Of a stretch of DNA of 64,000 nucleotides, positions 5,121-62,686 are shown one piece after another. This stretch comes from Ptychodera flava (lineage: Eukaryota > Hemichordata > Enteropneusta > Ptychoderidae). The DNA lies in assembly GCF_041260155.1 (NCBI RefSeq), contig NC_091941.1:39380747-39444746 (forward strand), in the 5' to 3' direction. The notes under the pieces are model-generated. The model was not told where the DNA came from and ran no database searches. It saw nothing but the letters and a program-made list of their open reading frames with translations. Both the position numbers and the translations under genes were made by a program. Within the stretch, counting starts at the first letter, position 1; the number at the start of each line of letters is the position of its first letter.

Positions 5121-6244
5121 TTTACATACATTTATATTTTAACAGTCATTCTGTGTTTTAATGAAATTGTTGACATGTCAGTTGTAAGATAGGAATTTCA
5201 AAGTGTCAATCTTAAAGTTTGAATACAGTACATTTTGAATGAGTTGTGAATGTATTTCACATTTTCTATGCTTAACCAGATGTCCTGAACAGAAATGGAT
5301 GTCAATCATTAATATCAAAGAGGAAAAAGCAGTGAATCAAAAATTTTGATGGGTGTTAAGACTTGCCAGCCATCCAATTAAATCTCCTGAGGAGCCATAG
5401 AGAGGCATTTTAGCTAAATCTGATGTGTGCAGTGTCTGGGATGACCTTTTCTTGTAACATTGAAACCATAAAAGCACAGCTAATAATGACAAAAACTGCC
5501 TTTTTAACTGTTATTTTAGTCATAAAAAAGCATCATTCAACAGAAAACCTGAGACACAATGAAAGATATCTTGTCATTTTTCTATCTCTAAAATAAGTCA
5601 CTTTATCAAATATATATTGTGAAATATTTGTGCATGTTGCTTTCTCATACTGAATTCTTATACAGAGAACAGAAAATTATCAGGAATTTGTCATGCTTTT
5701 CATATGAAATGCAGATTTCATAACGGTACACTTTCACTTAGCAAACATCAAGATATATCTGGCATATATCTCTGATTTATTAAAGTATGGCGCCCGAAGG
5801 GCGCGGAGAAAAATATGAAACATCCTGATACCTGTGATATATATTTCTTGTATATTAAAGTCATGCACAGGAAGGGCACAGGAAGGGCGTGCTGAAAAAT
5901 GTCTGATATATTAAAGTAATGTGCTCGAAGAGCACGCTGAAAAATATTGAACATACAGATATCTCTGATATATGTATGCCTGATATGTTAAAGTTGGGCA
6001 TGCTGAAATATGTCGATTATGTTGAAGGGCGCGCCGAAAAATGCAACTGAATGATGAAATATGTGGCTGACACGATGCATTTTAGGCAATGATGAGCCTG
6101 TGTCGAAATTCAAAAACACACTGAACCCCCCCCCCCTATTGGGCATTTCAAAAACATGGTGACCCCCCCATCACCAAAGTCAAAAACAGGGTGACCCCCC
6201 CCCATGAATCCACCGCCCCCAGGTCGAAGAAACTGACCAGTCCC
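4882..6244 (+). mobile_element. 1.36-kb TIR element inserted in a LINE
   Basis: The ends are a 23-bp inverted repeat (GGGACTGGTCAGTTTCTTCG at the left, its complement ending CCAGTCCC at the right). They are followed inward by C/G-rich runs repeating ACAGGGTGACCCCC. TTA precedes the left end and TAA follows the right one, so the target duplication is either a mutated 3-bp TWA or cannot be read. No transposase frame is seen. The interior has a (TA)n tract and several hairpins of the form GCGCCCGAAGGGCGC alternating with ATTAAAGT. A partial copy in the opposite orientation occupies 62857-64000. Confidence 0.75.
5062..5115. repeat. (TA)n microsatellite
   Basis: About 27 uninterrupted TA units inside the TIR element at 4882-6244. 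The inverted copy at the right edge of the window stops before this position, so it cannot be compared. Confidence 0.95.
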
Positions 6245-6600
6245 TAAGCTCCACGCCCTTTAGTGCAAGGGTTTTAACTCGGCTTACTGTTTTTTCATGT
6301 GCATTCGGTAGAGTCAATCATGTTCTTGTCTCTTTTTTTTAGTAGGATTCCGAGACAATTCAATTCGCTTGTAAACAACTACAATAACATTAATATTGTT
6401 TTTCAGTTAATCTAGGTTGTTTTAAAAGTATTTTAAAACTTTGTTTTCTCAGTATTGTTAAATGTGTATGTCTCGTCTCTGTCTCGCTTTTTCTCTGTAT
6501 CTGTATTTTTTTAACAGTCTTCCATAAATGGCCCCGGCTGTGGAAGTTATATTAAAATATTAGAATAAAATAGAATGAAATAAAATATAAAATAAAATTG

Positions 6601-7856
6601 TGTTTGTAGCATAATAACTAGCTTGTTATTGCTCAAGCTATGAGCACTGTCGACAGTTTTTGAATAAGTACCAACATGTCGTAGAGGGCGTGATTTCCAG
6701 GAATTGCGTGAACATCTTTTGCATGGAGATCTGTAGCTATAGCTGTTGGACTGTGTGTGGTTTCAATATGTCAGGGTAGTGTACGTTTCGATAACGGTTA
6801 ACTACTCTTATGAATATTCATTACTAATAATGAATATTTATGTCATTTTTACAGCTAGTTTCTCAGAAAATGGCAGTGACGCGTGTTGAAAGTCAGGTAT
6901 CGTAATATAAATGCGTATATTGGTGGAGCTGGATTGACCTACGGACCGAAAGCATACAGTCCTCCTTTGTGCATACGTCATTGCCGTCTGTAGAGAAATG
7001 GACGCGGACGTAACATGGTAGAGAGGACTCTGGTGTCGAAATAGTGAACCTAAAAGTCAATGTTGTCCAAAAGGTAAGTAAATAATGAAGTTTATAATAA
7101 ACGGCTAGAACGTTGACAGCCCTTATATTTGTAAATTTTAGTACATTGTACATGCTCATTTGGTATAAATGTGTGCACAAAATGACTGCGTCAAGGAGGC
7201 GGTAGCGCGCGACGGCTGTCATATCTGGTAGAAAAGCAAGCTTTGAAATTGACGATGTTTTATTTTTTTACAGGTAAAAGATAAAATATGCCCGGCAATG
7301 CTATATTCAAAGATGACAATCAACATGTTTCCTTTTGAGACGTGTGGACTTTAAAAAAAAATGTGGAAACCTTTCATGAATAACTCATTTCTATTTCCCT
7401 GTATATAATATGATCTGTACAAAGAGTGTATGAGGGCGTGTTGGAGCCTGCGTGTTGGTACTTGCACAAAGTTGGCCGACTCCAGCCACTGGAGCTTGTA
7501 GTACGTGGCTAGGTAGACGATGAAGGGCTAGAACTATGTATAATGTAGCATAGAAAAAAGGGGAGCTGGGTAACAAAATAATATAAATACCACGGTACAC
7601 TACAGTCTTATCGAAGATTCAGAATTGCCTGGCTAGATTCTGATCAGTCTCACCTCCAAAATATCCAATGGTGTTGAATACTACAATATCATCTTTATTT
7701 TACTCGACACATACTAACAGAGAGTATGGTATGGTACATCAAGATGTATTATAAATGTAAGTGAACAATACGGAGAAAGAAAAACAACCATTCAACTCTG
7801 TAATACGAAAACATGCAATATCAGAAAAAGAGTATCGACCATAATAAACATCTATT
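6601..7856. other. Intergenic stretch, nothing recognised
   Basis: No gene, RNA or clear repeat. The frames at 6893-7222 and 7391-7600 (minus) have no recognisable domain or splice context. Confidence 0.4.
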
Positions 7857-8074
7857 ACCTGGTCATGAGGGCTATAGCGTCCATTATTACCTGACAGGGG
7901 CTATACGTCACCAAAAAGACATAGTTATTCCCGAGGCCGTACAGGCAGCCTGGGGTGTACTGCACTTTCCGAAGTGTTGTTATACAATACAGTGAAAGTG
8001 AAAGTGAAAGGTATACTGATGTGTTTCCATAAGGGGTAAATATAAAGGTGCTATAGCCAGAATAAAGACCAGGT
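7857..8074 (+). mobile_element. MITE with CCTGGTC...GACCAGG ends (copy 1)
   Basis: The left end reads CCTGGTCATGAGGGCTATAG and the right end CTATAGCCAGAATAAAGACC then AGG. The interior has GAGGCCGTACAGG. A second member with the same ends and interior lies at 25237-25408. No target duplication is convincing. Confidence 0.65.
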
Positions 8075-8097
8075 CGTAGGTGTTTTATAGCATGCCA

Positions 8098-8330
8098 CAT
8101 GTTATTGTTTTAGCTCATATTTGGTATATGATACCAAAGAGAGGTATTCTGGTAAGTCAGTCTCATTTGCATCTTATTTGCATACGTCTGTCTGTATGTG
8201 TATGTGTACTATTATACTCAACAGACGGCTGGGGCTCAGCCAGGTGTAATGTCTATCAGACATATTACATAATCGCCAAATATCATGCAAGTCCCATGTC
8301 TGCATCATCTGCACCATACTCATGAGTATA
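8098..8330 (+). repeat. Short member of the TTTTAGCTCA hairpin-headed repeat family
   Basis: It begins TTTTAGCTCATATTTGGTAT, followed by a TGTCTGTATGTG tract, the same head as the longer members at 17508 and 34649. It is truncated or diverged after about 8230. Confidence 0.5.
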
Positions 8331-8989
8331 ACTGCTCTCCGATGATCTATAGTCTTGATATTACCAGTTCTAAAGATTCATTTTTTACTTACTAAAATCA
8401 CCTCAAACAATAGCAAATATGTTAAATTTTTGCAAAAAACTAATAAGATTTAACTGAATATTATCCAAAAAGGAGCACAGTCATCATTCTAAGCATAAGG
8501 CACAGAAGAATATACTGATACGTATCAATTGTGATATCAACCATAACCCATCTACCCTTTGGACCAACTTTACCATAGTCCTATGCAAAGTGTACGCAAA
8601 AATATTTTTACAAAACTCCTCTTTGATTATTGATACAATGACCAAAAAATAATCTCACCTCCCCACTCAGCTTTTCAAACCTGTTCATTACTTGACATAC
8701 CGGTGGAATGGAGTTCTAACAAAATAGTATAGACATTTCTTTTAACCGAGTTTGCAAACTCATTACAATTACATGTATTTGAAGCAATTTCTCTTAAGTA
8801 GATGTCATTTATCATAAATAATGAGAAAAATAAATAAAAAAATAAAAAAATAAAGCAATGAACGGAAATTTAAAATCCAGTTTGTGAAACCATTATCACA
8901 CACAAAAATGCAAATTATTTGTTCTGCTGAAAGAAAACAGAAAAAGATGATTGTTTCCCAGAAACAAAGAAAATTGCTCTAAAAATACA
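8331..8989. other. AT-rich stretch, nothing recognised
   Basis: Low-complexity A-rich runs (8820-8860) and no supported gene. Confidence 0.4.
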
Positions 8990-9290
8990 AATATTGGAGA
9001 AGTGGTCTCAGAGACGATTTTTCCCCAGAAAAAAACAAAATGTCCCCCAAAATACAAATATACAAATTTCATCACAATTTGAACAAACCTGACTGAAGTC
9101 ATCCCTAGGAACCTGCATATCAGATTTCAGAGCAGTTTGACGAGCAGATTCTCAGATTTTTTTGCCAAACATGTGTAAAATTGTTTTCAAAAATACAAAT
9201 ATGCAAATTTCACTACGATTTGAACAAACCTAAGTAGGTTACCCCATAGAATGTGCATGCAAAATTTCAAACATTCAGACTGGCATTTTC
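8990..9290. repeat. Two to three diverged tandem units of about 145 bp
   Basis: AATACAAATATACAAATTTC at 9051 and AATACAAATATGCAAATTTC at 9200 each lead into GATTTGAACAAACCT (one base changed in the first unit) and then a CAGATTT/CAAAATTTC block. A weaker unit precedes them. Similar wording (TATGCAAATTTCACT) occurs near 1100 in TIR element copy A, so this may be a fragment of a larger repeat family. Confidence 0.5.
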
Positions 9291-9448
9291 AGATAAGAAA
9301 CCAAATGTTGACTGATAAGGGAGGGATAGATGGATGAACGATGGACTGTTCAGCTTATCTGATAAGCTCAGCATTGCTGACAGCAGCTCTAAAAAAGGCT
9401 GTGTTAGTTCCATAATCAAATTTAAAGTGCCAGTACCTGTTACTCTCG

Positions 9449-9594
9449 CAATCTGATTAAAATAGATGCAGAGTACAGCCACGTTTATACTTACGCGGCA
9501 TTCTCTTGCTGTCATTGTAGTGAGAGGTGACAGCAAGAGAATACCGCGTAAGTATAGACGCCACAGTACTCTACATCTGATTTTAATCAGATTG
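9449..9594. mobile_element. 146-bp hairpin MITE
   Basis: Almost the whole element is one inverted repeat: CAATCTGATTAAAAT on the left, ATTTTAATCAGATTG on the right, with AGAGTAC, ACTTACGCGG and TTCTCTTGCTGTCA and their complements between, around a loop of about 10 bp. TTACTC occurs on both sides (9440-9445 and 9595-9600) and may be the target duplication, with three extra bases on the left. It carries no coding. Confidence 0.8.
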
Positions 9595-9687
9595 TTACTC
9601 GTGGTGATTTTTTTCGCTGTTTTTGTTTATAATGTCAAACACAGTTTCTTTATCTACTCCCTAAAGCATGTTGTTATTCACAGTATT

Positions 9688-9769
9688 CAGCTTGTAACTC
9701 AGCCTGTAGTACATCAGCTTGCCAACTCAGCCTGTACTGTAGTACCAGCTTGTCAACTCAGCCTGTACA
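9688..9769. repeat. Short direct repeat, 3 x about 27 bp
   Basis: Three units of the form CAGCTTGTCAACTCAGCCTG followed by TA(G)TACAT. Confidence 0.7.
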
Positions 9770-9779
9770 TGTGTTGAAA

Positions 9780-10757
9780 CTGCATTGTTATTGCTGACAA
9801 GTGAATTCTTGTCCATTTCAATGTGTATGTGAACATTAACAGTGCATTTAAACATGCATAAAGATGCTGCGCTTACAAGCTAAACAGTTTGTGTTTAAAC
9901 ATGTTTTTAGGAGTAGAACAAGATGTGGTGAAAAAATCATGAAAAGTTTCAGCTTCTGGCCCTTTCAATTGTGATTACCATGTTACATTTTATTAAAATT
10001 AAAAGAAAACAACATAGTATAATTGTTGGTAACCGCGGAGTGCTACTCATATATTCAAGTGAAAATTGCCTATTCTGATGATTGCAGTAAGAGGAATTGT
10101 GTATTACAGTAATGTAATGTCAACTTATCAATCTTTTTGGTAGTATTCACAAGGATAGACACAGGTTGAGGGTTACGGTATCTATCACCAGCCATGGAGC
10201 TTGTCACACCTACACCTGGAACTAGTAACTTGGTAACAGAAAAAGTAAACATTACTGCAAAAGTTAGAAAAGATGTAAAGGTGTGTTTGGCAAGGTAAGG
10301 ACCTTAAATAAATCCACATGGTGACATTGTACCATGCTTTACTGTTTATTATGAATACATGATGCTCAAAGGGTGAATATTACCATAGACAATACCAGAT
10401 ATGAAATGAAATTGCCGATATGGCCTGTTTACCACATACAGGTAGACCTGTGTATGCAGCAGTTTTGTTCCTTAAGTTGACAAGACAGAAAATGTGTTAA
10501 AACTCTTTCAATTATTTGAAAGTTTGTTGTTCCTATAAAAAAGAAGCATGCAAATATTCAGTTTGTGTCAATGAGGCTGACATGTTTGACCTTTGTATAT
10601 TTCACATGGACCACTCAAAGAATTAAGGTGTGCGGCTTCTGATACAGAACAATTGAATTGAAAATCCCCAAAGTTGCCAAAACAATTTAGGACTATGTTG
10701 CAAAGTCATAGAGTTGCTTCTATCATGGATTTGGCCTCTATAGGCAATTTACGGTAA
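9780..10757. other. Intergenic stretch, nothing recognised
   Basis: No supported gene or repeat. Frames are short and lack protein-like composition. Confidence 0.4.
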
Positions 10758-12425
10758 TTTTTAGTCCCCACGGACACCGTCCGGGGGGACTTATAGGTTT
10801 GGTCATGTCCGTGCGTGCGTGCGTGCGTGCGTGCGTGCGTCCGTTCACACAGATATCTCAGAGATGCAAGAAGCGATTTCATTCAAACTTGGTACAAGGA
10901 TTACTTCATATGTCATACAGATGCAAGTCGATTTGTTTTGGGATACGATCCAATATGGCCGCCAGGTGGCCATTTTATTACAATTTTTTCATGTACAGAG
11001 CCATAACTCAGACATGTTTCAACCAATTTTATTCAAAGTTGGTACAAGGACATTGACCAATGTCATAGATATGCACGTCAATTTTTTTTGTGATACGATC
11101 CAATATGGCCGCCAGGCGGCCATTTTATTACGATTTTTTCATGTTCAGAGCCATAACTCAGACATGTTTCAACCAATTTTATTCAAAGTTGGTACAAGGA
11201 CATTGACCAATGTCATAGATATGCACGTCAATTTGTTTTGTGATACGATCCAATATGGCCGCCAGGCGGCCATTTTATTACGATTTTTTCATGTACAGAG
11301 CCACAACTCAGACATGTTTCAACCGATTTTATTCAACGTTGGTACAAGGACATTGACCAATTTCATAGATATGCACGTCGATTTGTTTTGTGATACAATC
11401 CAATATGGCCGCTAGGCGGCCATTTTATTACAATTTTTTCATATGCAGAGGCATAACTCAGGCATATCTCAACCGATTTTATTCAAAGTTGGTACAAGGA
11501 CATTGACCAATGTCATAGATATGCACGTCAATTTGTTTTGTGATACAATCCAATATGGCTGCTGTGTGGCCATTTTGTTATGATTTTTTCATATACAGAG
11601 GCATAACTCAGGCATATCTCAACCGATTTTATTCAAAGTTGGTACAAGGACATTGACCTATGTCATACATACATGTACGTCGATTTTTTATGTGATACGA
11701 TCCAATATGGTCTCTAGGCAGCCATTTTATTACGATGTTTTCATGTACAGAGCCATAACTCAGACATATTTCCACCAGTATCATTCAAAGTTGACATTGA
11801 CCTATTTCATACATATGCTCGTCAATTTGTTTCACGTCATGTAGCAGTAACATGTCAATTATTGAAGTTTCGTAAGTAGGCTGATATGTCAAGAAATATG
11901 TACTGCATCAAATTCATGAAACTTTATACAGATGTTAACCGATGTTAAGCTCACATTGCTTTAACATTGAAAAAGACATTTATCAGTGTCATTTTAATTA
12001 ATTTGTAATTGCATAAGTAATGAACTTTCATAATTAGAGTGATATAGCCACAAAGTAATACAATGTCAAATTTGATGAAACTTGATACAGATGTTGATCT
12101 CAAAGTATTGTAAATACTGCATCAAACTTTATGAAATATGGTACCAGTGATAATCTGTTAAGTGTTAGGATTTTATGCAAAAATGTTTTGCAACATCCTG
12201 TTGATTAATTCCTAGTTGACTCATTTATGAACTTTAGGATGGTAGCCTACATTGGTTTTATGTTTTCATCACCATGGAACTCATTCTTGGCCATTGAGCG
12301 CCATCTTTATCAAAGTATTTTTATCACAGACCTAACTATGAAGAGGACTCTATCCTCTCTGACGACATGTAATCAAAGTACCCATTATTAACAAGTGGGG
12401 ACTGTGTCATCAACGATGACTTGTT
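10758..12425 (+). repeat. Hairpin-headed element with 150-bp modules (locus 1)
   Basis: The head is TTTTAGTCCCC followed by a 29-bp hairpin (10763-10791: AGTCCCC, GGACACCGTCC, GGGGACT). Then comes a (GTGC)n tract (10809-10842) and about six modules with a 150-bp period starting near 10999. Each module has GTTGGTACAAGGACATTGAC, then CCAATATGGCCGCC and GGCGGCCATTTT, which form a palindrome. A more diverged tail ends ATGACTTGTT. The same architecture, from head to tail, is in BCKDHA intron 7 (41127-42582). Because 150 is a multiple of three, long frames stay open through the modules. I regard those frames as artefacts. Confidence 0.8.
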
Positions 12426-12794
12426 TGAATATGATTTCGCCAAACCTCAATATGTTAATAGAATAGATTAACACTCATAAAATCTTAAATATATAACAAT
12501 TTGTCATAGTGATTACAACATTTATCAGTGTTCTCCCTGAATAAGGTAACAGGGGCGTGGCACCCTCTTGCAAATTGCCAGAAATGAAAAAAAATTTTTT
12601 TGAAAAATAAAAGAATAAAATGTATGAGATAAAAAGTTGACGGTGATTTACAAGCAAAATGCAAGCGTGAGCGTCGATCCTGCAGGCTGCAAACGTAATT
12701 CTCATCGATCTTGCAAATCTCGCGAGTTTGTGATGTCATCCGAGATCATAGGCCCATGTGCAACTCATCGATGCGCGATGGCAGCATATTTGCA

Positions 12795-12867
12795 TAGTCT
12801 CGGTTACCCAACTCCTCTGCGCTACTGGCGAAACGAGAGCGCAGAGGAGTCTGGGTAACCGAGACTA
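12795..12867. mobile_element. 73-bp MITE with 10-bp target duplication
   Basis: The left arm is TAGTCTCGGTTACCCA followed by CTCCTCTGCGCT. The right arm is AGCGCAGAGGAG then TGGGTAACCGAGACTA. CATATTTGCA flanks it exactly on both sides (12785-12794 and 12868-12877). A 9-10-bp duplication is usual for Mutator-like elements. A related longer element is at 56663-56863. Confidence 0.8.
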
Positions 12868-12899
12868 CATATTTGCATGGCTCAGGCCGTAACATTATC

Positions 12900-12923
12900 C
12901 ACGGTCCCTCCATAGGGACCGTG
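12900..12923. repeat. Perfect short hairpin
   Basis: CACGGTCCCT and AGGGACCGTG are separated by four bases, inside the CAGTGTTCTCC element. Function unknown. Confidence 0.7.
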
Positions 12924-13355
12924 CATTAGGTAACCGACTTAGCTGAGTAAACATGCCAAGGAGCTTGAGGGTAACCAAGGACAGCAGAGTACACTGAAGT
13001 TTTTTAGGAGGTTAGAATTTCGCTTGTGAGGAAAAAGTTGTGTATTCTTCCCAAAGCAAAACGGCCTATTTTTAGGCTCGGCCGGACGTGTATCAGGATG
13101 AGAATACGTGAGTGTTATGGTGATAATTTTGATATCGATGAATAAATGTATGAGTTTTTTATACAAAAAAAATCGGAAAGAATACTCCCCCAGTGCCACC
13201 AAATAACACCATTTTAATCTCTGTTTTTCAAACGCTCCAACGGCAGGAGGGGGACACCCCCTCCTGACCTCCCCCCGCGACCACTTACTCGGTCGCTTGT
13301 GGTGCTTCGCACCACGTCTTCGCCCTCTAGTCAAAATATCCTGGGGAGAACACTG

Positions 13356-14309
13356 TATAGTCTAGTTTTCCAATCATCTAAAAGTTAATCAGATCCTTCC
13401 AGTAACAACTGTTTAATGCAGCATTTTGGTATTGAATTTATACACTAAAGTTTTAGGTGCAATCATGGTTACGTCGGATATGTTATGTGGATTCCATCAA
13501 CCTTGTGGTTTCTATGCTATTTGTGAATGTTCACCACTGACAATTAGTCGCCTTCTTTTCATTTCTGTCCTTGAACCATATTCATCGCTCCATATATTTT
13601 GCATGAATGATACATGTATGTCAGCATAACAGCATAAGAACAAGGTATATATCAACATCACTGATAACAAATCCATCTGATGAAAAATGTATTCACATTT
13701 TATCTTGGCAAAATGTCCGTGAGATTCAACAGTTTGCCATTTTTCTGAGAAAAGCTTTTCAAAAATGAGATGAATGTGTACCAGATTTGATTTAATGTAA
13801 TTTGTATAATTTGTTTAGTAACCAGTTTGTCACTGACTATCTTCCTTTGTATTTATATGTCATTGAATTTTAAGATGGTTTGAGGCCTTGCACTAATATA
13901 AACGAACTTGAACTTGCATGAATGATAGTATTACACTTCACTCAAAGTATTTAATGTGGTTCTGTGAGTACAAAGTTTTGAAATCAGGATATGTAGTTGT
14001 GATGATCATTTGATCACTTTTTAGTACATTATGGAATGCGGCATTGTATTTACGCTATTTGGAATCCATGAAGAGACAGTTGTTAGGACTATACAAAATA
14101 CATTGTGGTGAATAAATTGTCCATTGGTTACATGAGTGGGTTAGCAAGAAATGTTTTTTGAACCATTATACTATTGATGATGTAAACAGGATGCAGTTTA
14201 ATTGCTAAACTAAATAATGAGATCTAAGCTGGTATTGTGAGTCACAGACAATACCCTGGTATGTATGTGTCAAATTGGAGTTAGTGGTCCCTGACATATA
14301 TCTTGTTCA
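13356..14309. other. Intergenic stretch with a possible LINE tail
   Basis: No gene is supported. Near 13860-13910 the sequence GCACTAATATAAACGAACTT followed by GAACTTG resembles the 3' tail of CR1/RTE-like LINEs, but no coding part is visible upstream. Confidence 0.35.
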
Positions 14310-15055
14310 CATTGGCAACCCAACTGAAATTTGGGCCAACGCAAATAATTGTCCTTTTGGGATTAAATTTGGTCCGTGTCCACACCTACCGGTACCAGAA
14401 TTAGGGCCGACGTAACTTTACCTTCCTTTGTGACCTCTGACCTGTCAAAGTTCAAAATGGCGCATTTGAATATGGCACGCTGTTTCTACTGTTCATGATT
14501 TTCCTGTGTTTTTACGCACAAGAAGGGCAAATATGACTACCACTCACCCTTTTAATCATCGGAGAGATCTTCACTATCTATTGGATGAGCATGTGGTATA
14601 TATAAGACCGCGGTGGAGAAATAACCAGTGCGCGGCATTTTTGACATGCCTCTCTAGTCTATTACGTGCACTGTGGAATCGAATGACATGGTCTCGTTTG
14701 CGAAACAAAGGTTGGTGGGAAGTTCAGGGTACATGGGATGATATTAAAATATAAAGACTGGATTGAAAACTTTCGATAGGTGTAAACTTTAGTTTCAAAC
14801 GTCGTTTGTTTTGTGCGAATAGGGTGACTAGTTCAACTTCGATCCATAGCGGAGGCCTGGTCAACTGGGACCAGGGCCGACGTAACGTGTCCACACTGGC
14901 GATTTGCGTCGGACCAAATTTTGCGTCGGCCCTGAGTCGGCCCTGAACCCCCCCTTCTAACCGGGACCAAACTGAGTCGGCCCAGGGCCGACTCAGCGTG
15001 TCCACATTGGTTTTTTACGTCGGCCCCGGCCCTGGTCGGGACCTGGGCCGACGCA
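14310..15055 (+). mobile_element. PIF/Harbinger-derived element with subterminal GTGTCCACA repeats
   Basis: Both ends carry repeated blocks of the form GTGTCCACATTGG ... GGGCCGACGCAAA (left about 14318-14415, right about 14880-15055), with many direct and inverted GTCGGCCC motifs. Exact termini and target duplication could not be fixed. The centre holds a decayed transposase exon (next entry). Confidence 0.5.
14506..14793 (+). pseudogene. Harbinger transposase N-terminal fragment (broken)
   Basis: An 82-residue frame reads RRDLHYLLDEHVVYIRPRWR, later MTWSRLRNKGWWEV. A stop follows, and one frame over KDWIENFR precedes another stop. The order basic/aromatic region, WWE, a short spacer and then DWIENFR matches the start of Harbinger DDE transposases as I know them (WWE...F...DWxxNFRMSR). 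At least one frameshift and one stop break it, and no DDE core is present. DWxxNFR is the most telling part. This is a family recognition by eye, not an alignment. Confidence 0.5.
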
Positions 15056-15990
15056 AAGTCGTCAATCTGAACGTACCAATAATGATGACACACACAGACA
15101 CAGGTAGACATCAATTTCACATCAATTCCCATATAGGAGCTAAAAATATGTTTGTATTAAATACATATACAGTAAAAAATTCCTAACTGAAGCCATGGCT
15201 ATGCTTTTGAAATCTCTCTGACCATCCCACTGGGTAAAAGTCTAAAAACCAAATGCTGCTTCTTTATTACGTACATCTCCCTCATCTCAATAATCATACC
15301 ATGCTGCCTCACTCTCTATTGTTATGCAAATGATCACTAGTCCTGGTCTGTCTACATCAATGCACTACCAAAATTACCTTTTCTCCGACTCACCTTTCTT
15401 TCCTATGTCTTTCTTATCTCATGATAATCATGGAAAATAAAGGTCTATAAAACAAATAAACTTTACTTAAACATATGAAATATTTATATTACCATTGCAT
15501 AGTTTCTCTACACTATTGCATGGTTGTACAGTAGAAACAGGATCATGAATGCCATTACATCATACATGACAGAGTAAGGCCGAGGGAAACAGTCTGTTTT
15601 TGGGGGTGACTCACAGGCCCGAGGGGTTAAAGACGTATGCTGTTGCCCTCATGCCAGTCAATATGTGTTTTGTAACACATCTCATCCGTAGCCATGCATA
15701 AGAACGTACTATACACAACACTTGTCGCATGTAGGTCTATGATGTAATATGTTTGAGTGGTTCAGTGAGAAAAAGTTTTTCCTATATAAAAGATCGCAAT
15801 ACTTTTGCAAAACGTTCAATTCACCTTTGATTATAGTTTTTGTCCGTATCGAGTCCTTGTTGGAAACCAAAGCATTCAATTCTTCTTCAGAAAGTAGGAT
15901 AACCAAAAATATTCTGGATTATAGTTTCGATCGGCTGCAGACGGCATCTTTGTTTACATTCCGGTCCGCGTTCGCGTCAAATATCGTTTT
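15056..15990. other. Intergenic stretch upstream of the zinc-finger gene
   Basis: Nothing is recognised from 15056 to about 15900. The last 100 bp become GC/CpG-richer (GGTCCGCGTTCGCGTC), consistent with a promoter or 5' UTR of the gene starting at 16022. Confidence 0.4.
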
Positions 15991-15998
15991 TGACGTCA
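15991..15998. promoter_or_regulatory. Full CRE palindrome upstream of the zinc-finger gene
   Basis: TGACGTCA lies 23 bp before the chosen ATG at 16022, in a CpG-rich segment. It is the consensus for CREB/ATF factors. Whether it lies in the promoter or the 5' UTR depends on the transcription start, which I cannot see. Confidence 0.4.
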
Positions 15999-16021
15999 GC
16001 GGGCATCATTTTTCGGAACTG

Positions 16022-19000
16022 ATGCCTGGCAGGCAACAGTTCAAACAAATAATGCCTGATGACGTCGTTTACGTGGATCAGCACAAAAAGAACGCATCCC
16101 ACGTGACTATCAATTGGCGAATTAGAATACAGACTGCGGATGAGGTGTGTTACAATTATAATTGACTCATCCTAAAGAGTTACTACTGCCCATATTTTGG
16201 TCAAAACTTGTCATGGCATTTGACAAATTGCATTTTCTTTTCAGCATTGTGATTAAGTTGTTGTTTGAAAAAGATGATGATGGCATAATTTCAACGGAGC
16301 ATGCCTACTCTGCCTTCAAAGTCACCATTGAGCATGTATTCCCATCTATTACGGCACAGGCCTCAAGTCACTTCGGACACCTACTTAAGACAGTTTTTCC
16401 CAGCGTCATACGATGTGTTAGGACAAAGGACAGAATGTATCCTTTCAACAATATTGCTAGGCACTTTTTAAGATTCTCTCCCAGAAAACACTATTTGAAC
16501 TCTCCATATATACTCTGATATTTGATGTAAAGATACTGTAAAACATTCACTGGTATTCATATAGTGACAAAATTCTATGGTGCATTGGGCCAGTGTCTTT
16601 ACTAGGCCAGTATGTGTATGTTTCAAGTGTCTCTTTTTCTGTCTGGTTGTCATTTGATCAAACTGATCTCAAAGTGTGAACAGTGTAGGTACATTGAATG
16701 TTCTTACGATGAGCAGGGGTGCACTTTGATTGTATTCAAAGCAGGTGTGATTTGATTGTATTCGAAGCATGAATTGCACATTGTTAGCACAAATCAATGT
16801 TGTGAAAACCGAATCACCAGCTCTTTACCGGTGTCAATAAATATAATCTTTATAATATCAAAATTTGCATCATGATCATTACATCTGTACAACATAGGAT
16901 CAATAATGTTAATATTGTTTCCTTGACAACATCCTGCCTCAGACCTCACTATTCTAAAATCAGTATGAAGCCAAAGGATCTGCTTGAACAAGAAATCTTT
17001 CCTGTACTTGGAAAAATTAAACAGTTATTTGAAGATTGTCTTTGTGATGGCGCTGTCTTCTTCGTAAGACATGCAGTATTTTTAAGGGTAAGTAGAAAAT
17101 ATCCAGGAAACACTGCAACTTTAAGATGGCACTCTGTAAGTGGTAGCAGTCATGTGATATATGATGGCAGTGTGTGTTGGGGATTACTGGTGTTGTGTTA
17201 GTGCTAGCATTCACAAACATGATATAGTGTGTCAGTGTGTGATAAATCACTGCTTGTGTGTCGTTGGTAGTACACTCATACAAGATGAGATGTGAAGTGT
17301 CTTAAAAATGTGAAAATATTTCAAATTACTTGGTCCAATACTTGGTTTTAGACCGACTTGCACACATGGGGAAGGACTATTTATTTTGTGTTTTGTTTAG
17401 AATATCCTTTCTTAAATTAAAACAGGATTGTAAACTTAAGGTTGAAATTCTGCTCACTGCTTTCAAGATTAAGCAATAACTTCTTATTGAAGTTTGGAAA
17501 GCAAAACATTTTAGCTCACATTTGGTATACCAATGTGAGGTTATAGTATAAGCTGAAGTCTGTGGCGTATGTCATATGTATGTATGTATGTACCCTACGG
17601 TATGTATGTATGTATGTATGTATGTACGTACGTACGTGCATACGTACGTACGTATAGTATGTCGGTCACCATCAAAAACTTGCGAACTGCTACACTTTTC
17701 ATGGGATTTTGTTCAAATGAAGTTTGCATTACCAAAATTATGCAAATGAGCTTAAAAAATGTGAAAATGGTCAAAAATTAATAACTCAAGAACCACTGTT
17801 TTGATTGCTTTGAAATTTAGTGGGCAAGTACCTTAGGTGGATCTTGTACAGTTATAGGTATATTGTGAAGATATCTTGAATTCTATATTTTTGCTGAATT
17901 TTTTGGTTATTTTTCAAATTTTTTGTGAAAATTCTTCTTCTCTGAAACCGCCAGCCCAGTTGCTTTCAAATTTGGGTTGGATGTTAGCAAGGGTGTTACC
18001 TTTCTGATTTGTCAAAATTACGACAAATTGGCAAAATTACCATTTTGGAGCAATTTTTGTCATTTTTGGTCAAAAAAGCGTAAAAAATTTTTTTCTTTAA
18101 AACTTTTGGACAGACAGCTTTTATATTTAGTGTACAGTTGCCCAGGGATGACAATAGTTGGATATGTGGAAATTGTTCAGAAATATGCAAATTTGTGTTT
18201 ATAAGACAGTTTTGTCATTTTCAGTCAAGAAAACATATTTTCAAAACAATTTTATCATTTTGGTCAAGAAAACTTGTTCTCAAAAACTACTCGTCTGATA
18301 GCTTTGTAATTTGGTATAACAGTCCCGAGGGATGTTATTCGATAACTTTTCTGCTCAAAGTGTTGGGAAACCCCAAATTGTATAATTTTGGTAATTTTCT
18401 CAGTCTTTGATCTTAAATGACCTATACCAACCCAGGATATGTTGTGAGACAGTGGTTAAGGCTGTGAACATAATTTTGTCATATTTGGTATCAATTTGTA
18501 GTGAAATTTGATCCAGAAAACTAAGCTGAGGTTAATTTTTCCATTTCGGACCAATGTTTACAACTTTTCCATGTAAGACACACAAGAACTGATAAGAAAT
18601 TTGAATCCAGGATAATTCCACATGTCATAATCACCCCCCCCCCTTCCCCCAGCAGTGAAAGGCATTTCACCATCTGTAACTAACTTAGTGCTTTTTACAT
18701 TTGAATGACAGCACTGATGGCATTTTAAAAATCCCCAAGGTTGTAAATATATCACCTACGTTTCCCCACTCTCCCACCTTTTCTTTTTGTCAAGCCTTCT
18801 CTTGCTGATTGTTTTTATTGACATTTGCTAATGTACGTAGGATCTGCTTATTGTCCCATTTCTATAGAAGTTGATATGCATGTTTCTAAAGTTTACCTCC
18901 AGTGCCTATGTTGCACAACTTATTTGCTTTTGTCATTCTTGTTTTTCTGGTTGTACTGTGTAGAAATCATTGTCATAACATAAACGCAGAACTTTGCTGC

Positions 19001-21422
19001 ACTGAACAGATAGAAACAACATTCATCATTGATCTTTGGTACCAATACTAGTATGTACCAATTCTGATCAAATGTGAGCAACACCATATCATTTGCGGGT
19101 TTTTTTTATTTTAATTTCAGGATTTGATATCTCCTGGCAAGGACTCTTCAAGTATGACGAAAGTGTCTGATGGTGTCAAGAAAGTCATGAGAGTGATCGA
19201 TGAGTGTCTTGATTCTCCAACTAATACGGATACAGTTACCAACACTCCCATCTCAAAGCCAAATTTGGAGACTGATGTCATTGATGTCAGTGACAGTGAG
19301 TCAGAAATTGAAGACAGCATAGCCATTGAAAGTCCTGCCACAGATAATGTGCCAATTGAAAGTCTTGCCATAGATAATGTGCCAATTGAAAGTCCTGCCA
19401 TGGTATGGTGCGTGGAAAACGGAGTTCTTGTTCTCAGAACAACTGATGAAGTCATCCCTGATACCACAGCCAGTGAGCAACATAATGAAAGCTTTAATCA
19501 ACATCGTGAGACTGGACCCAGTCAGTTTCCACTTCATACCAGTGAGAACATCTACGCTGTTGGAGATCTAGTTTTGCCTCCTTTGCCATGTCCAGACCCT
19601 CAACCATCAAATAGTTTGCCTTTGGTAACAACTCCCAGTCAGCTTGATGGCAGTACACATTCTTCTTACGATACAAACTGTATTCACAATAGCACTGAGG
19701 TACAAAATCACACCTCTCATCTTCCTCAACAAAGTATGATTTCACTTCCATCTACATCTTCATCTGGAGTGGAAAATGGTGACGTGAGATTTGGTGAAAC
19801 CAGTTATAAAGGCAACAATCAGAACCATGAGAATACAAATGAATCAGAAGTGAATGACAACAACAGTATAGACAGTGGTATCTGTAGTGATAATGGTAAG
19901 TTTGATTCATGTAGTCATCCTTACTATTGCAATTTGAGTCAGAATGTATAAGCTGTCAAGTCTAGTTGAACAACAATACATACACATGTAAAAATCTTTT
20001 GTAATTACCATTTTACCTGCTACTTAACAACTAGTTTAGGTGTTGACACAACTTTATGTGAACACGTCAAACATTTTAAACTCCACAAGATCATGCACTG
20101 ACATGTCTGGGATCAAAAACAGCATCTTTCACATCAACAACCGACTCATAGTTGTTGTCAAATGATTCATCAAGAATATCTCTTTGTATTGTTTTATTTT
20201 AGTGTGTAGAAGTCCTGAAACAAATAGCAAGGTCAAGAAACGAAGAGAAACTCAAAGAGGGAAAATACTGCCTAAAATGAAAGCTGCTAAGATAATATTG
20301 TATAGAGGCAGTGTCCAAGAAAGTATTGATGTCACAAAATCTACCAAATATAAACATATTAAGGTTACATATTGTTTTGCGAAATTTCCGTCTAAGATGA
20401 CCTTGAAAAAGCACCTACAAGTGGTTCACCCAAAACAGATCATGAAAGCGTCACGACCATTTCCCGTCTCAAGAACATTGATTGCAAGTAAAAAGAGTGT
20501 AGCAATATACACTTGTGTTATGTGTCAACGCTACTTTAGTGGTGTTCATGGATACAAATCACACATGCTTTCGGTCCATTCCAATAGAAATCTGTTCTCT
20601 TGTAAGATATGCAACAAACTAGGGTTTGTCCGCAAGTATGATCTTTTGATGCACAGGAAAACTCAACATGCCAAGCGACCACACAGAAAATCACAGAAGG
20701 TACCGGTAGTATTGGAGACAGAATTCAGCACTAGCAGTGAAAATGAATATGGCAATGAATGTAGTTCTGATGACACCAGCAACGAAGACCAGCAAAGCAT
20801 TGGTACTTCAGATCGCCCAGTCAAGAGAAAGTTATTCAGGTCAACAGGCAAAACAAAGAAGACAGCATTGATGCGGCGTAAAGAGAAAAAGGAGAAAAGA
20901 GAAAGCGATGATTGTACAGAGATGAAGATTGCAGATACCAAGCCATCCACTTGCAAAGCTACAGCAGATAAAGTAAGGCAAAAGACGCTGTTTAAACCTC
21001 CTGAATCATGTTACAGTTTGTCCATCAATAATTTATTGCCCTCTGTGACACTGAAAAAAATAAAGATGAAAACAAACGAGGTGTACATAGTAAATAAGAA
21101 ACACAACAAAGCCATGGAACAAACAACAAAGACAGCAGAATGTAGCAATACATCTAAAAATTGCAGCAGTACTTGCAACGATGCAGATAATTCCAATACA
21201 ACAAGAGGTGAAGAGCCATGGTACATGACTAGAATGAAACAAAACACTGGTCTTGATGTGTACCAGGAAATGTTTTCATGCCCATACTGTAGCATTATCT
21301 TTCCAGATACTGCTATGTACGTGACCCACTGTAGCTTGCATTGTCAAGATAACCCATTCCAATGTCGTCTATGTCTTGTCCAGTGCAATGACAAATATGA
21401 ATTTCAAAAACACAGATGCTAA
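16022..21422 (+). CDS. Putative transcription factor: RFX-like domain, C2H2 fingers, Ikaros/Hunchback-like C-terminal finger pair
   Basis: Exons read: 16022-16146, 16245-16460, 16943-17087, 19121-19895, 20203-21422, which keep frame and give 826 residues. Residues about 42-115 (KLLFEKDDDGIISTEHAYSA ... SHFGHLLKTVFP ... YPFNNIA) resemble an RFX-type winged helix. The region 163-420 is acidic and Ser/Thr-rich, probably disordered. Exon 5 encodes a degenerate finger (VTYC for CxxC, about 475-496), two regular C2H2 fingers (about 525-546 and 554-576), a basic KRK-rich stretch (about 627-654), and two terminal fingers. FSCPYCSIIFPDTAMYVTHC and FQCRLC...DKYEFQKHRC closely follow the MYxxH and DRYEF pattern of Ikaros dimerisation fingers. 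Intron 2 appears to use a GC donor. Exon 1 could also end at 16144, but only 16146 keeps frame. A likely nuclear regulator; orthology is not claimed. An AATAAA at 22263 could end the transcript. Confidence 0.8.
17508..18420 (+). repeat. TTTTAGCTCA hairpin-headed repeat in intron 3 of the zinc-finger gene
   Basis: The head is CTCACATTTGGTATACCAATGTGAG, a near-perfect palindrome, followed by a TATG/ACGT simple tract (17569-17655). Behind it are about four diverged units in which a phrase like 'AAAACTACTCGTCTGATAGC' leads to an AATTTGG/GTACAGT block. Related heads lie at 8098 and 34649. Confidence 0.6.
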
Positions 21423-22993
21423 AACACTGAAGCACACATCAAAAATTCAGTCATCCAGACCACAGGCCTCTTCACCATGATAAAATTCTACTGAATACTT
21501 TTCAATTAGGTTCAGTAAGAAGAACTTAATCCATGCTGTATGGAGAGATACATTGATTTTATTTGTGTCACAAGTTGTAAATTGTTTGTACTAAATTTAT
21601 TCTTTCTCTCTTACATTGTAAAATTATCATATAGAAAGAACATGCTTTAACGTGTGTTGCAGCACTTCTTTGAAAGTAGGGATCAGTGCTGGAGTATTGC
21701 AATATGTATTTAAACAGTGTACGCCATTAATCACAACTGGTCAGGAAAGTTGATAATTTTTAAAGGAGATTTTTGTTTTTTCAATTCAGGACAATTTTTT
21801 GTAGTAATGAACAATTGTAAATTGTTATCAAACTACTGTGTGATAAGCATGTACTGTTTGTGTTTTAGTTCATATTTTAATCCATGTTATTTATCTACAG
21901 TCATCTTGTATTCCATCATTGCAAGACAGTGTCTTGTCATATTTTGTAAGATGAAGATGATGTTAGTAATATCTTATTAGTGTGAAATTTGTCTAAGGAG
22001 ACCTACCACTAATCGGAGCTCCTCTCCATTAAGTACAGCCTCATCTTGTCATCTTGTTCCATAGCTGTCCTTAAAAAAAACGACTTCCATGGTGACTGGT
22101 AATTTTATTCTATACAGAATGTAAATAATGTGATAATTAACTTTACAAGTACTTATAAGATGAAATACTGAAATATTTATAAACTGTAATTCTCACATGA
22201 TTTGAATATTTATAGATTTGTTAAAGTTGTTTTTTAAAAATTAATTGACCAGAAGATCAAATAATAAAATATTCATAAACTGTAACTTTTACACATTTTG
22301 AATATGTATAAATGGGTTAAGATGTATTTATTCTTTTTAAAAATCAATTGACGAAGTTTTGTACATAGAATTGTTTTTAAGATCTTTGCATGCAAACAAT
22401 ATACTGTATTCAGGATTTTTCATCAGCAAATGAAATTATCAAGGTAATACCGCTAAAGCTTGGACAATTCAGGTAATGATTTTCAAGAATTCCAATGGCG
22501 ATAACCTAATAATACTCTTTTAGATGTTTCATAATTTTCACAGGGACACGTTTCAGTTTATAATAATTTACTTATCAAAGTGTTTACATAGTGAAGGCTG
22601 CAAAAAACTTTGTTTTAGCTTTATTTTGTTTGTTGTTAAATGCAGAAATACTCAAGAGTTTTCTAAGGGCGCAACATGCCAATTATACCTCCTATCAATG
22701 ATTTTGTATTTATAAATACCAATTTACTCTCATCAAACATCCATCAATTACAGTTTTGCCATGCTTTTAACATTTGCACCAAACTTTGCTATAACTTTGA
22801 TGTTTTAACTTGATTGATCAGGTCTCATGCTGTGCAATGGGGTGAAATGGATTTGGGATTGCTATCTTTCAGTGTTATGTTGTGAATTATGAATGAACAG
22901 TAAACAAAAATTATCAATATTTACACAGTTTGTCCAACAGCTGAAGAACATATAAGTTTTCTTCCATTCAGGTTTTTTCTTTCATATGTGAAT
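21423..22993. other. 3' UTR and intergenic sequence
   Basis: It follows the stop codon of the zinc-finger gene. It is AT-rich with no protein-like frames. AATAAA at 22263-22268 is the first reasonable poly(A) signal I see. Two similar segments (22155-22210 and 22262-22320, AATATTTATAAACTGTAA-like) form a diverged direct repeat. Confidence 0.4.
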
Positions 22994-22997
22994 TTAA

Positions 22998-23235
22998 AGA
23001 GAGGGGGTTCGTCAGAACTGCGCATGTGTGACTTTCCTGTTCACAAACAAGGTATTTCATGCATATCTAGATGCATCACGTCAACATAGCTGCAACATTT
23101 AAATTTTACGATATTCATTGTTAACAAACATATGATTTAAATGTCATCGATTGCCAATGTACCCTAGATACAGTGTTACATGGGTCGTAGGGGTTCCTGG
23201 CAACCTTTCAGCAGCGTTCAGACAACCTCCTCCCT
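22998..23235 (-). mobile_element. TTAA-type MITE, relative of 3983-4133
   Basis: The left end AGAGAGGGGGTTCGTCAGAA is preceded by TTAA (22994-22997). The right end, read inversely, is AGGGAGGAGGTTGTCTGAAC and is followed by ATAA, one change from TTAA. The right half matches the left half of the element at 3983-4133 in opposite orientation. Confidence 0.55.
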
Positions 23236-23506
23236 ATAAGACTTGCTTGAAGCTTTCATGTCTGTCAACCTTGAACCAGATGTTTTCCATTTAGTCTTTT
23301 ACAGGTGTATAATAATTAAGCCTAATACAAGATTACATATAAGTTACTTCAGATACAGAAGGAAACACAGATTTGCAGTGTTTCTCAAAAGACAATTATG
23401 CATATCATCGATTTCTATAATTCTGTGAATGAAGAAGTTGAGATCAAATAGTATATGTAAAATATAAATAAAAAAGACAATACTGAATGTAGGTAAACCA
23501 GCTTAA

Positions 23507-23590
23507 CCCTTCACCATCATGGTTTGGCCCAAACCCATTGTTATCATTGATGACTGTGGACCTTTTTACATGGAATTAGGGGCGAACAGG
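23507..23590. mobile_element. 84-bp TTAA-flanked MITE-like sequence
   Basis: TTAA occurs at 23503-23506 and 23591-23594, with imperfect inverted ends CCCTTCACC and GGCGAACAGG. It is short and the ends are weak, so this could be coincidence. Confidence 0.35.
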
Positions 23591-24007
23591 TTAAATCCAA
23601 ACAATCTCAGGTTTACTCAGAACAGTGCTTGTCACAATGTATTTAACCTACCTCTAATAAATGTAAAAAGTATAAGAATCTTGCAACCTCAGTAAACCAT
23701 CCATCCTTTAAATGTTTTAGGCTACTAAATAGATTCTTTCAAAAAATGAACAATGAATGGTTGGTTATGAAAAAATATTTAATATTTAATATTACTGACC
23801 AGCTCAGAACTCAGACAGAGCACTGTTTAAAGGAATAAGAATATAAATACTGTAAAATTTGGAAACCCAGGAAAAGTTTATTTTAGTTGTAGTCCAGACT
23901 ACGTACATTGAAAATAATTAACTAGATTTATTAAAATATGGAAGAACTAAACTCTTTATGATTTTTGCAGATTTGTCAAACATCGGATGAACCAAATGTT
24001 AAATACG

Positions 24008-24105
24008 GCTAGTTTTCCATCGGATTCGAACCCACAACATGCGGCATCAGTCGCCTAGCTGAGAGGCCACAGACAGAACCGCTCGGCTAAATCTCCACTC
24101 CCAAA
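24008..24105 (-). repeat. tRNA-like sequence (class II, Ser/Leu type), probably a SINE head
   Basis: Read on the minus strand it has an A-box TAGCCGAGCGGT and a B-box GGTTCGAATCC about 60 nt apart, spacing that suits a tRNA with a long variable arm. The acceptor ends do not pair (GGGAGTG against GGAAAAC) and the T-stem has a mismatch, so it is not a good functional tRNA. A tRNA-derived SINE or tRNA pseudogene is more likely. The SINE body, if any, would extend toward 23900. Confidence 0.5.
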
Positions 24106-25236
24106 AAGAGTGGTTCAATAGCCGGCTAAGTTGTTACATTTTTCTGACTGAGACCGCTCAACACGTTGTAGGGTTCTTGAAGCACTCATGCACGCATGGT
24201 TAAACTTCAAATCATGATAACAATATTATGGAAAATTAATGAAGGAACTGCCGGGTAAAGTAATATCATGGTTAGAAATTTTACAGGTAATCAATTTGGA
24301 TTGGACATCTTATACAGTATTGCAGTTCATAATTATGCAAATTCCAGATTAATATTTGACCCCACAAGGTCATCAGTACTAAGTGTTAATCAAATGACTA
24401 GTCATGTTGACTGAAATATTACAGTACAGCTGTATAGACCACTAGATTGCTTAATTGCTGTATGTATGTGTTAATAACAGTACTTGTAGATTCATTAGAA
24501 ATTTGCCATGCTGTCTATAGTTTACATTTGAACCATGTAGATTTTGATGATATGTATGTATCTGTACACTATATTCAATAAAAGTAGATGCCATACTTTA
24601 TCTAAATAGACAATACATTTCTGTACTCTGTATCCAAATAGATGCAACTTTATACACTTCTGCAAGGCAATTTATACTCAAGAAGTGATATTATTATCTT
24701 TAAGAATATAGTCGATGTAGATTATTTTACAGCATTTTGTCCTTTATTACTCTCCAAAGGTCAAACCTATTTTATTGCTTGTTGTATCAGTTTGTGTTTG
24801 TTGACATTACACTTGTTTACACGACACACATATTATCATGTATGCACATTTGAATGTTCACATGGAAAAAGTGCAAATATGTATTTCTGCTTAATTTATT
24901 GATTTTCTTATATACTTGTAAATAATGTTATGTTTTTAAGCTGATAATGTGATTTGGTTCATATCAAGAACTCTACCAATTAACTGTCAGTTTGCTTGAT
25001 TTTTACAGTCATATATTTTTTCCTTTGATAAAGCTGTCATGAATTACATATTTGATAAATTACATATTTGATATGTGAGTAAATCTGTAATTCAGCTGCT
25101 GTTTCTCAGAATATCTTCTAAAGATGTACACAATTCTCATTACCATCTGGCAATGTTACCCTCATGGCTTCTGAATGAATATTGTATTATACTTCCTTGT
25201 TTGATACACAATGTGTGGCAATAGCAAACACCTATA
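24106..25236. other. Intergenic stretch, nothing recognised
   Basis: AT-rich, with an AATAAA at about 24578 but no linked coding exon. No clear repeat. Confidence 0.4.
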
Positions 25237-25408
25237 GCCTAGTCATGAGGGTTATAGCGCCCGTCTATTACCCCAAGGGGCTGTGTGTTACCAGAGACAC
25301 ATCGCTATTGCCTGAGGCCGTAGGCCAAGGGGTATAGCGATGTGTTTCTGGTAACACGCCCACGAGGGGAAATAGACAAGCGCTATAACCCGAATAAAGA
25401 CCAGGCTT
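25237..25408 (+). mobile_element. MITE with CCTAGTC...GACCAGG ends (copy 2)
   Basis: Same family as 7857-8074: AGTCATGAGGGTTATAGCGC at the left and GCGCTATAACCCGAATAAAG then ACCAGG at the right. Its centre forms a second inverted repeat around GAGGCCGTAGG (AGACACATCGCTATTG against TATAGCGATGTG). Confidence 0.65.
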
Positions 25409-25576
25409 AGTTGCACTTTAATCTTTTCTGTCGATGGGCTGTTCAAGTTCTTACGCTGTTGGAATATTGGAAAATGTTGGACAATCTGTTTCAGAAAATG
25501 TGTTGTCACCTATCCCGGCCTCACATCACGTTCTAGTCATCACCCACCATTGTGGCAGAGCTGCAGATGACACTAT

Positions 25577-25712
25577 GGTCACGTGACCGGGCACTTTTCC
25601 AAATTTGGTAAGAACTATTTCCGTAGGGGAATGGCTTTTCAAAAAATACCCACTGACGTCACTTTTGTCGATCCGATGGGGACTAGAAGTATCTATTTTC
25701 TCCTCACGTGAC
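25577..25712. promoter_or_regulatory. Orphan cluster of E-box/CRE palindromes
   Basis: GGTCACGTGACC (25577-25588), TGACGTCA (25654-25661) and TCACGTGACG (25704-25713) lie within 140 bp. No exon is supported nearby on either strand. It may be a promoter or enhancer, or merely part of an unrecognised repeat. Confidence 0.3.
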
Positions 25713-25848
25713 GTATTCTAGCAAATCGCGACACGGAATGAGCATGTGGCATGTTATAATTCTATTTAATGAATCAGCCTTTGAACAGAATACATGCAGG
25801 TTATATGCTTACAGTGGTACATTGTTTTCAGTTTGTCTACCATGGCAG

Positions 25849-25904
25849 GCAGGTGGGTGGGTGGGTGGGTAGGTAGGGAGGGAGGGGGTGCGTGTGCGCG
25901 TGCG

Positions 25905-25959
<55 letters not shown>
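25849..25959. repeat. Compound microsatellite (GGTG)n-(GGGA)n-(GA)n
   Basis: GGTGGGTGGGTGG, then GGGAGGG, then GCGTGCG, then about 25 GA units (25908-25959). Confidence 0.95.
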
Positions 25960-25962
<3 letters not shown>

Positions 25963-26403
25963 TGTATGTGTCTGTGTGTGCCACCGGGATGTAATCCTAC
26001 TTGAAAAATATAGCAATGCATGTCAATGTGTACATTGAAATTTGTATGGACATAATCTGAGAACTGAAGGCAACTTCACACATTGGATCTTAGTGAAATA
26101 ACATGATGGATGGATCATTGCATGTTAAGACCAATCAAATATTTAACCGTACAGGTAACCAAATTCAAATGGCAATTATAAAGGTCAAATAATAATAATG
26201 ATACAATTCAGTTATGTCTCCCCATATTTAAATTCCACACAATCACTCAACAACAATGATCCACTCACTGGTATGTCATTTCACTAACAAAGGTAGATTA
26301 ATGTGTTAAGTGGCCTTCAGTTCTGAATATTTATGTGTTTAAAACAATCTTCTTGTTTCATTCTTAGAGAACTGACATATTGTTTTAACCAGCTTGCACA
26401 ACA

Positions 26404-27112
26404 GATGTAATCTTCTTACGGTCAATGTCAGGTTTTGTGACTATTTTCAGGTTAAACTTGAAACTTTTAAATTAAAAATGTTGCAAATATCAGTTTTCAA
26501 AACTGTCACTTTGATGTAATCTTCTTACAGTCAATGTCAGGTTTTGTGACTATTTTCAGGTTAAACTTGAAACTTTTAAATTAAAAATGTTGCAAATATC
26601 AGCTTTCAAAACTGTCACTTTGATGTAATCTTCTTACGGTCAATGTCAGGTTTTGTGACTATTTTCAGGTTAAACTTGAAACTTTTAAATTAAAAATGTT
26701 GCAAATATCAGCTTTCAAAACTGTCACTTTGATGTAATCTTCTTACAGTCAATGTCAGGTTTTGTGACTATTTTCAGGTTAAAACTTGAAACTTTTAATT
26801 TAAAAATGTTGCAAATATCAGCTTTCAAAACTGTCACTTTGATGTAATCTTCTCACAGTCAATGTCAGGTTTTGTGACTATTTTCAGGTTAAACTTGAAA
26901 CTTTTAAATTAAAAATGTTGCAAATATCAGCTTTCAAAACTGTCACTTTGATGTAATCTTCTTACAGTCAATGTCAGGTTTTGTGACTATTTTCAGGTTA
27001 AACTTGAAACTTTTAAATTAAAAATGTTGCAAATATCAGCTTTCAAAACTGTCACTTTGATGTAATCTTCTTACAGTCAATGTCAGGTTTTGTGACTATT
27101 TTCAGGTTAAAA
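26404..27112. repeat. 109-bp minisatellite, about 6.5 units
   Basis: Units begin GATGTAATCTTCTTAC at 26404, 26513, 26622, 26731, 26841, 26950 and 27059. Periods are 109 or 110 bp and units differ by only a few bases. No coding potential. Confidence 0.95.
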
Positions 27113-27129
27113 CTTGAAATGAAACTTAA

Positions 27130-62526: not shown

Positions 62527-62686
62527 GTTTTCGTTAGAGTCCGTTCACACAGTGTGGTGACATATAATTGCAACAAACGTTTACCTTATGTGACCTGCTC
62601 AGGTGAGTATACCGTGGTCCATTGCGTGTGTAAACATGTCATGCGGCTTCATCACACTCTATAGAAAACGGTTGAATTACAAGTAC
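62527..62686. promoter_or_regulatory. Probable promoter/5' region of TRIM-like B
   Basis: The start codon of gene B lies in AACATGGCG, a YY1-like context. No TATA box is seen. The region is squeezed between gene B and the possible exon at 62687-62757. Confidence 0.3.

Follow-up and report, generated by a model that had tools for sequence, protein, structure and literature searches.

A five-exon zinc-finger gene of Ptychodera flava with an Ikaros/Hunchback-like ending and an uncertain RFX-like N-terminus

Can one animal protein carry both an RFX-type winged helix and the C-terminal finger pair characteristic of Ikaros and Hunchback? The question is raised by a locus in the hemichordate Ptychodera flava, lying in a 64,000-nucleotide stretch of contig NC_091941.1 (positions 39,380,747 to 39,444,746 of the forward strand; hereafter the window, whose own numbering is used throughout), in which an earlier note, made from the sequence alone, had read five exons between positions 16022 and 21422 as encoding such a combination. 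The + strand does hold a multi-exon C2H2 zinc-finger gene and, in our corrected model, its five exons encode 778 residues. Judged from the sequence, we find it credible both that the gene exists and that it ends in Ikaros/Hunchback fashion, while the RFX-like N-terminal half is a lead with an even chance, or a little less, of being right. The locus as a whole is best explained as a diverged, probably dimerising zinc-finger regulator of about 778 residues with an uncertain RFX-like N-terminus, an account that falls just short of an even chance. The fuller claim, that one protein unites an RFX-type winged helix, interrupted at its wing by a U12-type intron, with a C-terminal dimerisation pair of the Ikaros/Hunchback type, we regard as doubtful.

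How sound is the gene model? The peptides named in the earlier note (FEKDDDGIIS, SSHFGHLLKTVFP, MYVTHCSLH, PFQCRLC and DKYEF) are each encoded on the + strand. The protein had been given as 826 residues long; the noted exons, rebuilt from the sequence, yield 833. The corrected model departs from the noted one in two places, the exon-1 donor and the U12-type second intron, the latter being the firmer correction. For the scoring of splice sites, which used approximate metazoan matrices, all GTs and AGs in the window served as the background. Translation had been taken to start at MPGR... in exon 1, a start that we have abandoned: the donor it requires scores -7.3, at the 31st percentile of the window's GTs, whilst an alternative donor two bases upstream (GAG/GTGTGT, the slash marking the splice site) scores 5.09, at the 99.6th percentile, and with it the MPGR frame is closed by a stop that follows HCD, at a length of 44 codons. 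Splicing at 16144, the best site, leaves MPGR... out of phase; translation would then begin with the ATG at 16140 (MS/IVIKLL), and the part of exon 1 upstream of this is probably untranslated. Donors 16144, 17087 and 19895 and acceptors 16244 and 19120 stand between the 99.4 and 99.8th percentiles when ranked among all such sites in the window, and the exon-5 acceptor (20202) reaches 91.7. Exon phases are consistent throughout, and the coding asymmetry of exon 4 exceeds that of all 2,000 background draws (2,000/2,000). The ATG at 16140 is not a strong start: it has a C at -3 and is preceded by three other ATGs (16022, 16052 and 16059), of which the one at 16059 shares the coding frame but is closed by a stop. 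It is possible that the model misses an upstream exon. TATA-like words occur upstream of the gene at 15783 and 15785, and a GTAT-rich simple repeat lies within intron 3 (17560-17660).

The N-terminal 77 residues, split by the U12-type intron, would most likely form a strongly diverged RFX-like winged helix, and this is the weakest step in our account. There is a considerable, if less than even, chance that, in a genuine gene with a genuine terminal pair, the N-terminus is a helical segment of some other kind that matches RFX by accident and perhaps includes a degenerate loop like that of an EF-hand. What speaks for RFX is first its recurrence: RFX_DNA_binding (PF02257) was the best or only listed Pfam family for all seven N-terminal sub-sequences that contain the complete exon-2 match (132, 101, 171, 179, 145, 77 and 75 residues, several splice variants included), with E-values of 0.037 to 0.18. 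An HMM (hidden Markov model) of six RFX-type sequences, three of them domains from PDB chains and three provisional, gave the corrected sequence 13.3 bits, a score reached by none of 20,000 shuffles (best shuffle 12.7), and hhalign gave RFX 63% over 48 columns. In pairwise comparison, 8 of 4,000 shuffles reached the segment's best RFX score, and we take the signal to be borderline with respect to chance. A candidate for the wing, PHYSKISMK in exon 3, is visible in a MAFFT alignment and is favoured, for three of four references, when alternative exon-3 acceptors are compared.

The points that weigh on the other side are several. The best Pfam match scores 15.1 bits against a curated cut-off of 27, its E-value of 0.037 is never bettered, and it spans residues 6-56 (profile positions 9-57 of 79), stopping before the wing. 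Fry_C, another weak Pfam family, covers the same stretch and outscores RFX in a control in which the acidic loop was altered. An EF-hand loop of calmodulin type fits 14 columns of the segment (LFEKDDDGIISTE; hhalign 49%) roughly as well as RFX does, with a score against a provisional calmodulin sequence that 1 of 4,000 shuffles reaches. A PDB sequence search with the N-terminus returned no match, and two AlphaFold models made without relatives are of low confidence (pLDDT, the predicted local distance difference test, 54.8 and 62.7). Set against the EF-hand reading, the RFX match runs over some 50 residues rather than 14, Pfam listed no EF-hand family for the segment, and position 12 of the loop is His, not acidic.

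By eye from the alignment, three of the nine residues invariant in a panel of six RFX/ARID2 sequences (half of them provisional) are kept, namely Tyr23, Phe43 and Phe51 in 1dp7 numbering; Arg58, Gly63 and Gly71 are not. Shorter N-terminal pieces of 36 and 58 residues had no Pfam match, and RFX_DNA_binding was found neither in a Pfam scan of the whole 833-residue model at E<=10 nor in a three-frame scan of 16020-26011 at E<=0.1. The putative winged helix that had been read here has a weak likeness in Pfam and HMM searches, with every Pfam match far under the cut-off and no counterpart by sequence in the PDB. In the structure prediction that the earlier note had called for, the models place helices near the positions expected of helices 2 and 3 of an RFX domain; they give no confident fold, and fold searches with them found no match at E<=0.001.

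Is the ending really of the Ikaros/Hunchback type? The last 49 residues (FSCPYC...QKHRC) align without gaps to the terminal pair of a provisional IKZF1 sequence, with 17 of 47 positions identical. Their BLOSUM62 scores are 114 to IKZF1 and 97 to a likewise provisional Hunchback sequence, whereas six further pairs of fingers score 60 to 83. In shuffles that preserved all eight zinc ligands as well as five framework residues, none of 20,000 reached the IKZF1 score (best shuffle 108) and 8 of 20,000 reached that for Hunchback. These scores uphold the assignment of the terminal pair made in the earlier note. That it is instead an ordinary DNA-binding C2H2 pair, resembling Ikaros by chance, seems improbable on these figures and on its position at the very C-terminus, as in Ikaros. 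That alternative draws on the behaviour of ordinary fingers in the same comparisons: on a two-sequence Ikaros/Hunchback profile in hhalign, the pairs of CTCF and Aart also score well, at 51.3 and 53.5, with a third control at 34.4 and the terminal pair at 63.2, a margin that is real but not huge.

Three further observations count against the Ikaros/Hunchback assignment. The best matches of the pair in a PDB search are ordinary fingers (Aart, CTCF), entries for Ikaros, Helios and Aiolos standing lower, and none of the listed structures could be recognised as a terminal pair of Ikaros. A 13-row tree has no starred branch and carries a long-branch warning. The last finger is atypical, ending in H-x-C-stop and lacking the regular ligand spacing. 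In that tree the pair groups both with the terminal pairs of IKZF1 and Hunchback and with the window's own middle fingers (90/81). Pfam's zf-C2H2_4 passes its cut-off of 27 for the whole protein (29.2 bits) and stays under it for the terminal pair alone (18.3). The middle of exon 5 holds two regular C2H2 fingers, starting at residues 475 and 504, and a broken finger-like stretch with a single Cys at about residue 428; the four DNA-binding fingers of Ikaros type were not found in the protein, which has these two regular middle fingers only.

Do the early exons and the last one belong to the same gene? The second intron bears on this question. GT-AG members of the U12 class read GTATCCTT at the donor and have TTCCTTRAY as their branch word. 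The exon-2 donor GTATCCTTT is poor as an ordinary donor (62nd percentile), yet both it and the branch site TTCCTTGAC agree with the U12 consensus at 9 of 9 positions, and the branch A lies 16 bases from the last intron base, 16942. In its donor, its branch site and its short branch-to-acceptor distance, the second intron is of the U12 type. The minor-spliceosome consensus has ATATCCTT at the donor and TCCTTAAC at the branch site (PMC2831892). Random sequence with matching dinucleotide composition should contain each full signal 0.8 times per 64 kb strand, and from these densities we estimate by hand a chance of about 1 in 100,000 of finding both here in the right order and phase. Among four frame-compatible exon-3 acceptors, only 16943 has a 9/9 branch site; with this acceptor the wing also scores highest against RFX1, RFX5 and RFX7, and the exon 2/exon 3 junction falls where an RFX wing would be. 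Two points tell against this picture: the same acceptor gives the tied lowest wing score to ARID2, and the shorter words recur, RTATCCTT nine times and TTCCTTRAY four times on the two strands of the window together.

The alternative is two genes, one for a short RFX-like protein whose frame closes at 16518 and another, for the zinc fingers, that begins within exon 3 or upstream of it. It could appeal to the unspliced exon-2 frame, which closes at 16518, to an AATAAA at 16836 and to an in-frame ATG at 16964 within exon 3. We think it distinctly improbable, given that the U12 donor and its branch site agree in both order and phase; moreover, exon 2 has no strong ordinary donor, so the U12 reading is needed and is also sufficient. 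The phase-consistent introns and the U12 signals favour the view, already taken in the earlier note, that early and last exons would form one gene. The same intron disposes of YPFNNIA, which had been counted as part of the RFX domain: it directly follows the exon-2 donor, inside the intron, is in no spliced exon of the rebuilt models, and would be translated only if the intron were retained or a GC donor used.

Table 1. Features of the zinc-finger gene, in window coordinates
Feature	Coordinates	Strand	Evidence
Exon 1, last coding bases (ATG AG, then donor GTGTGT)	16140..16144	+	Donor 99.6th percentile; frame and start
MPGR... frame of the earlier note, out-of-phase upstream frame	16022..16144	+	44 codons once spliced 16144/16245
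Exon 2, first part of RFX-like segment, corrected residues 2-66	16245..16436	+	Acceptor 99.6th percentile; sub-cut-off Pfam RFX match, residues 6-56
U12-type intron	16437..16942	+	Donor GTATCCTTT 16437-16445, branch site TTCCTTGAC 16919-16927, AG 16941-16942
Exon 3, possible RFX wing PHYSKISMK then further residues, 66-114	16943..17087	+	Donor 99.8th percentile
Exon 4, long Ser/Thr/Asn/Asp-rich stretch, residues 115-373	19121..19895	+	Acceptor 99.4th, donor 99.7th percentile; composition
Exon 5, with the middle fingers, a basic stretch and the terminal pair	20203..21422	+	Stop at 21420-21422
Two middle C2H2 fingers, residues 475-528	20508..20669	+	zf-C2H2_4 match
Ikaros/Hunchback-type terminal finger pair, residues 730-778	21273..21419	+	Sequence comparison; last finger ends H-x-C

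Elsewhere in the window, the - strand carries open reading frames (ORFs) with RING domains at 55334-55804 and 62125-62544 and one with a SPRY domain at 57894-58523, a combination found in animal TRIM genes, which suggests that at least two adjacent TRIM-type genes lie between 52279 and 62544. A similar unit of about 150 bases recurs in two separate tandem arrays, at 10876-11793 (6.1 copies) and 41264-42473 (8.1 copies). One frame stays open through 216 residues in the first and 191 in the second, and the two look like a single satellite-like family present twice in the window. A third array, at 49411-50590, has 14.6 copies of an 81-base unit with 95% matches; 81 being a multiple of three, each strand has long open frames across the array, and these are probably not genes. 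Two more arrays are very uniform: 26404-27119 (109-base unit, 6.6 copies, 98% matches) and 59245-59401 (30-base unit, 5.2 copies, 100% matches).

What might the protein do? It would be a nuclear C2H2 zinc-finger protein, probably DNA-binding, whose middle fingers would contact DNA and whose terminal pair could dimerise, either with itself or with other proteins that have a pair of this kind. With most of the RFX signature lost, binding to the X-box is not expected, and a diverged RFX-like segment might serve chromatin or protein binding. Should the RFX-like segment prove genuine, the gene would represent a second way, besides ARID2, of combining an RFX-type fold with C2H2 fingers; the Ikaros/Hunchback pairing module would have been carried into a protein that lacks the DNA-binding array of Ikaros, and splicing by the minor spliceosome would decide between a whole winged helix and an early end of the regulator. 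If the segment is not RFX, what is left is an ordinary, rather diverged animal zinc-finger gene.

Four known systems invite comparison. The second intron has the donor and branch words and the short branch-acceptor distance of minor-spliceosome introns, with no difference seen, and its splicing is predicted. Proteins of the Ikaros/Hunchback family (IKZF, Hb, HBL-1) share the C-terminal pattern FxD..MY..H....H....PF.C..C.....DxYEF; the present protein differs in having two good middle fingers and a broken one, an H-x-C ending and an extra N-terminal segment. According to PMC12506653, the family has four DNA-binding fingers plus two C-terminal fingers for homo- and heterodimers, and HBL-1 does not homodimerise through its pair, so a terminal pair alone is no proof of dimers. 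RFX1-8 are weakly resembled over about 50 residues, corresponding to helices 1-3 of their DNA-binding domain; here, as distinct from them, the segment lies under the Pfam cut-off, its wing is unmatched by the HMM and few of the panel-invariant residues are present. RFX proteins are not known to carry C2H2 fingers. Their family has domains named B, C and DIM (PMC5838959).

A precedent is ARID2 (SMARCF2), whose animal orthologues combine an RFX domain with a C-terminal zinc finger (PMC9170682). Its RFX-type domain is similarly diverged and is found only weakly by phmmer from RFX1 (E 0.24), and hence an accepted member can score low. That our gene is a shortened or fragmentary ARID2-type gene, in which the two elements were joined already, is very improbable. 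In its favour is a local BLOSUM62 score of 40 to ARID2, next to 31 to 45 for five RFX proteins; against it, a scan of 6030-16021 in the three + strand frames, at a threshold of E<=0.1, showed no ARID or ARM family, both present in ARID2, although short exons or ones farther away could escape it. A search of titles and abstract openings on RFX with Ikaros or IKZF found no protein joining an RFX-type helix to an Ikaros-type pair. Since ARID2 already joins an RFX domain to a zinc finger, the combination of RFX and C2H2 is known, and it is the Ikaros-type pair that would be the new element here.

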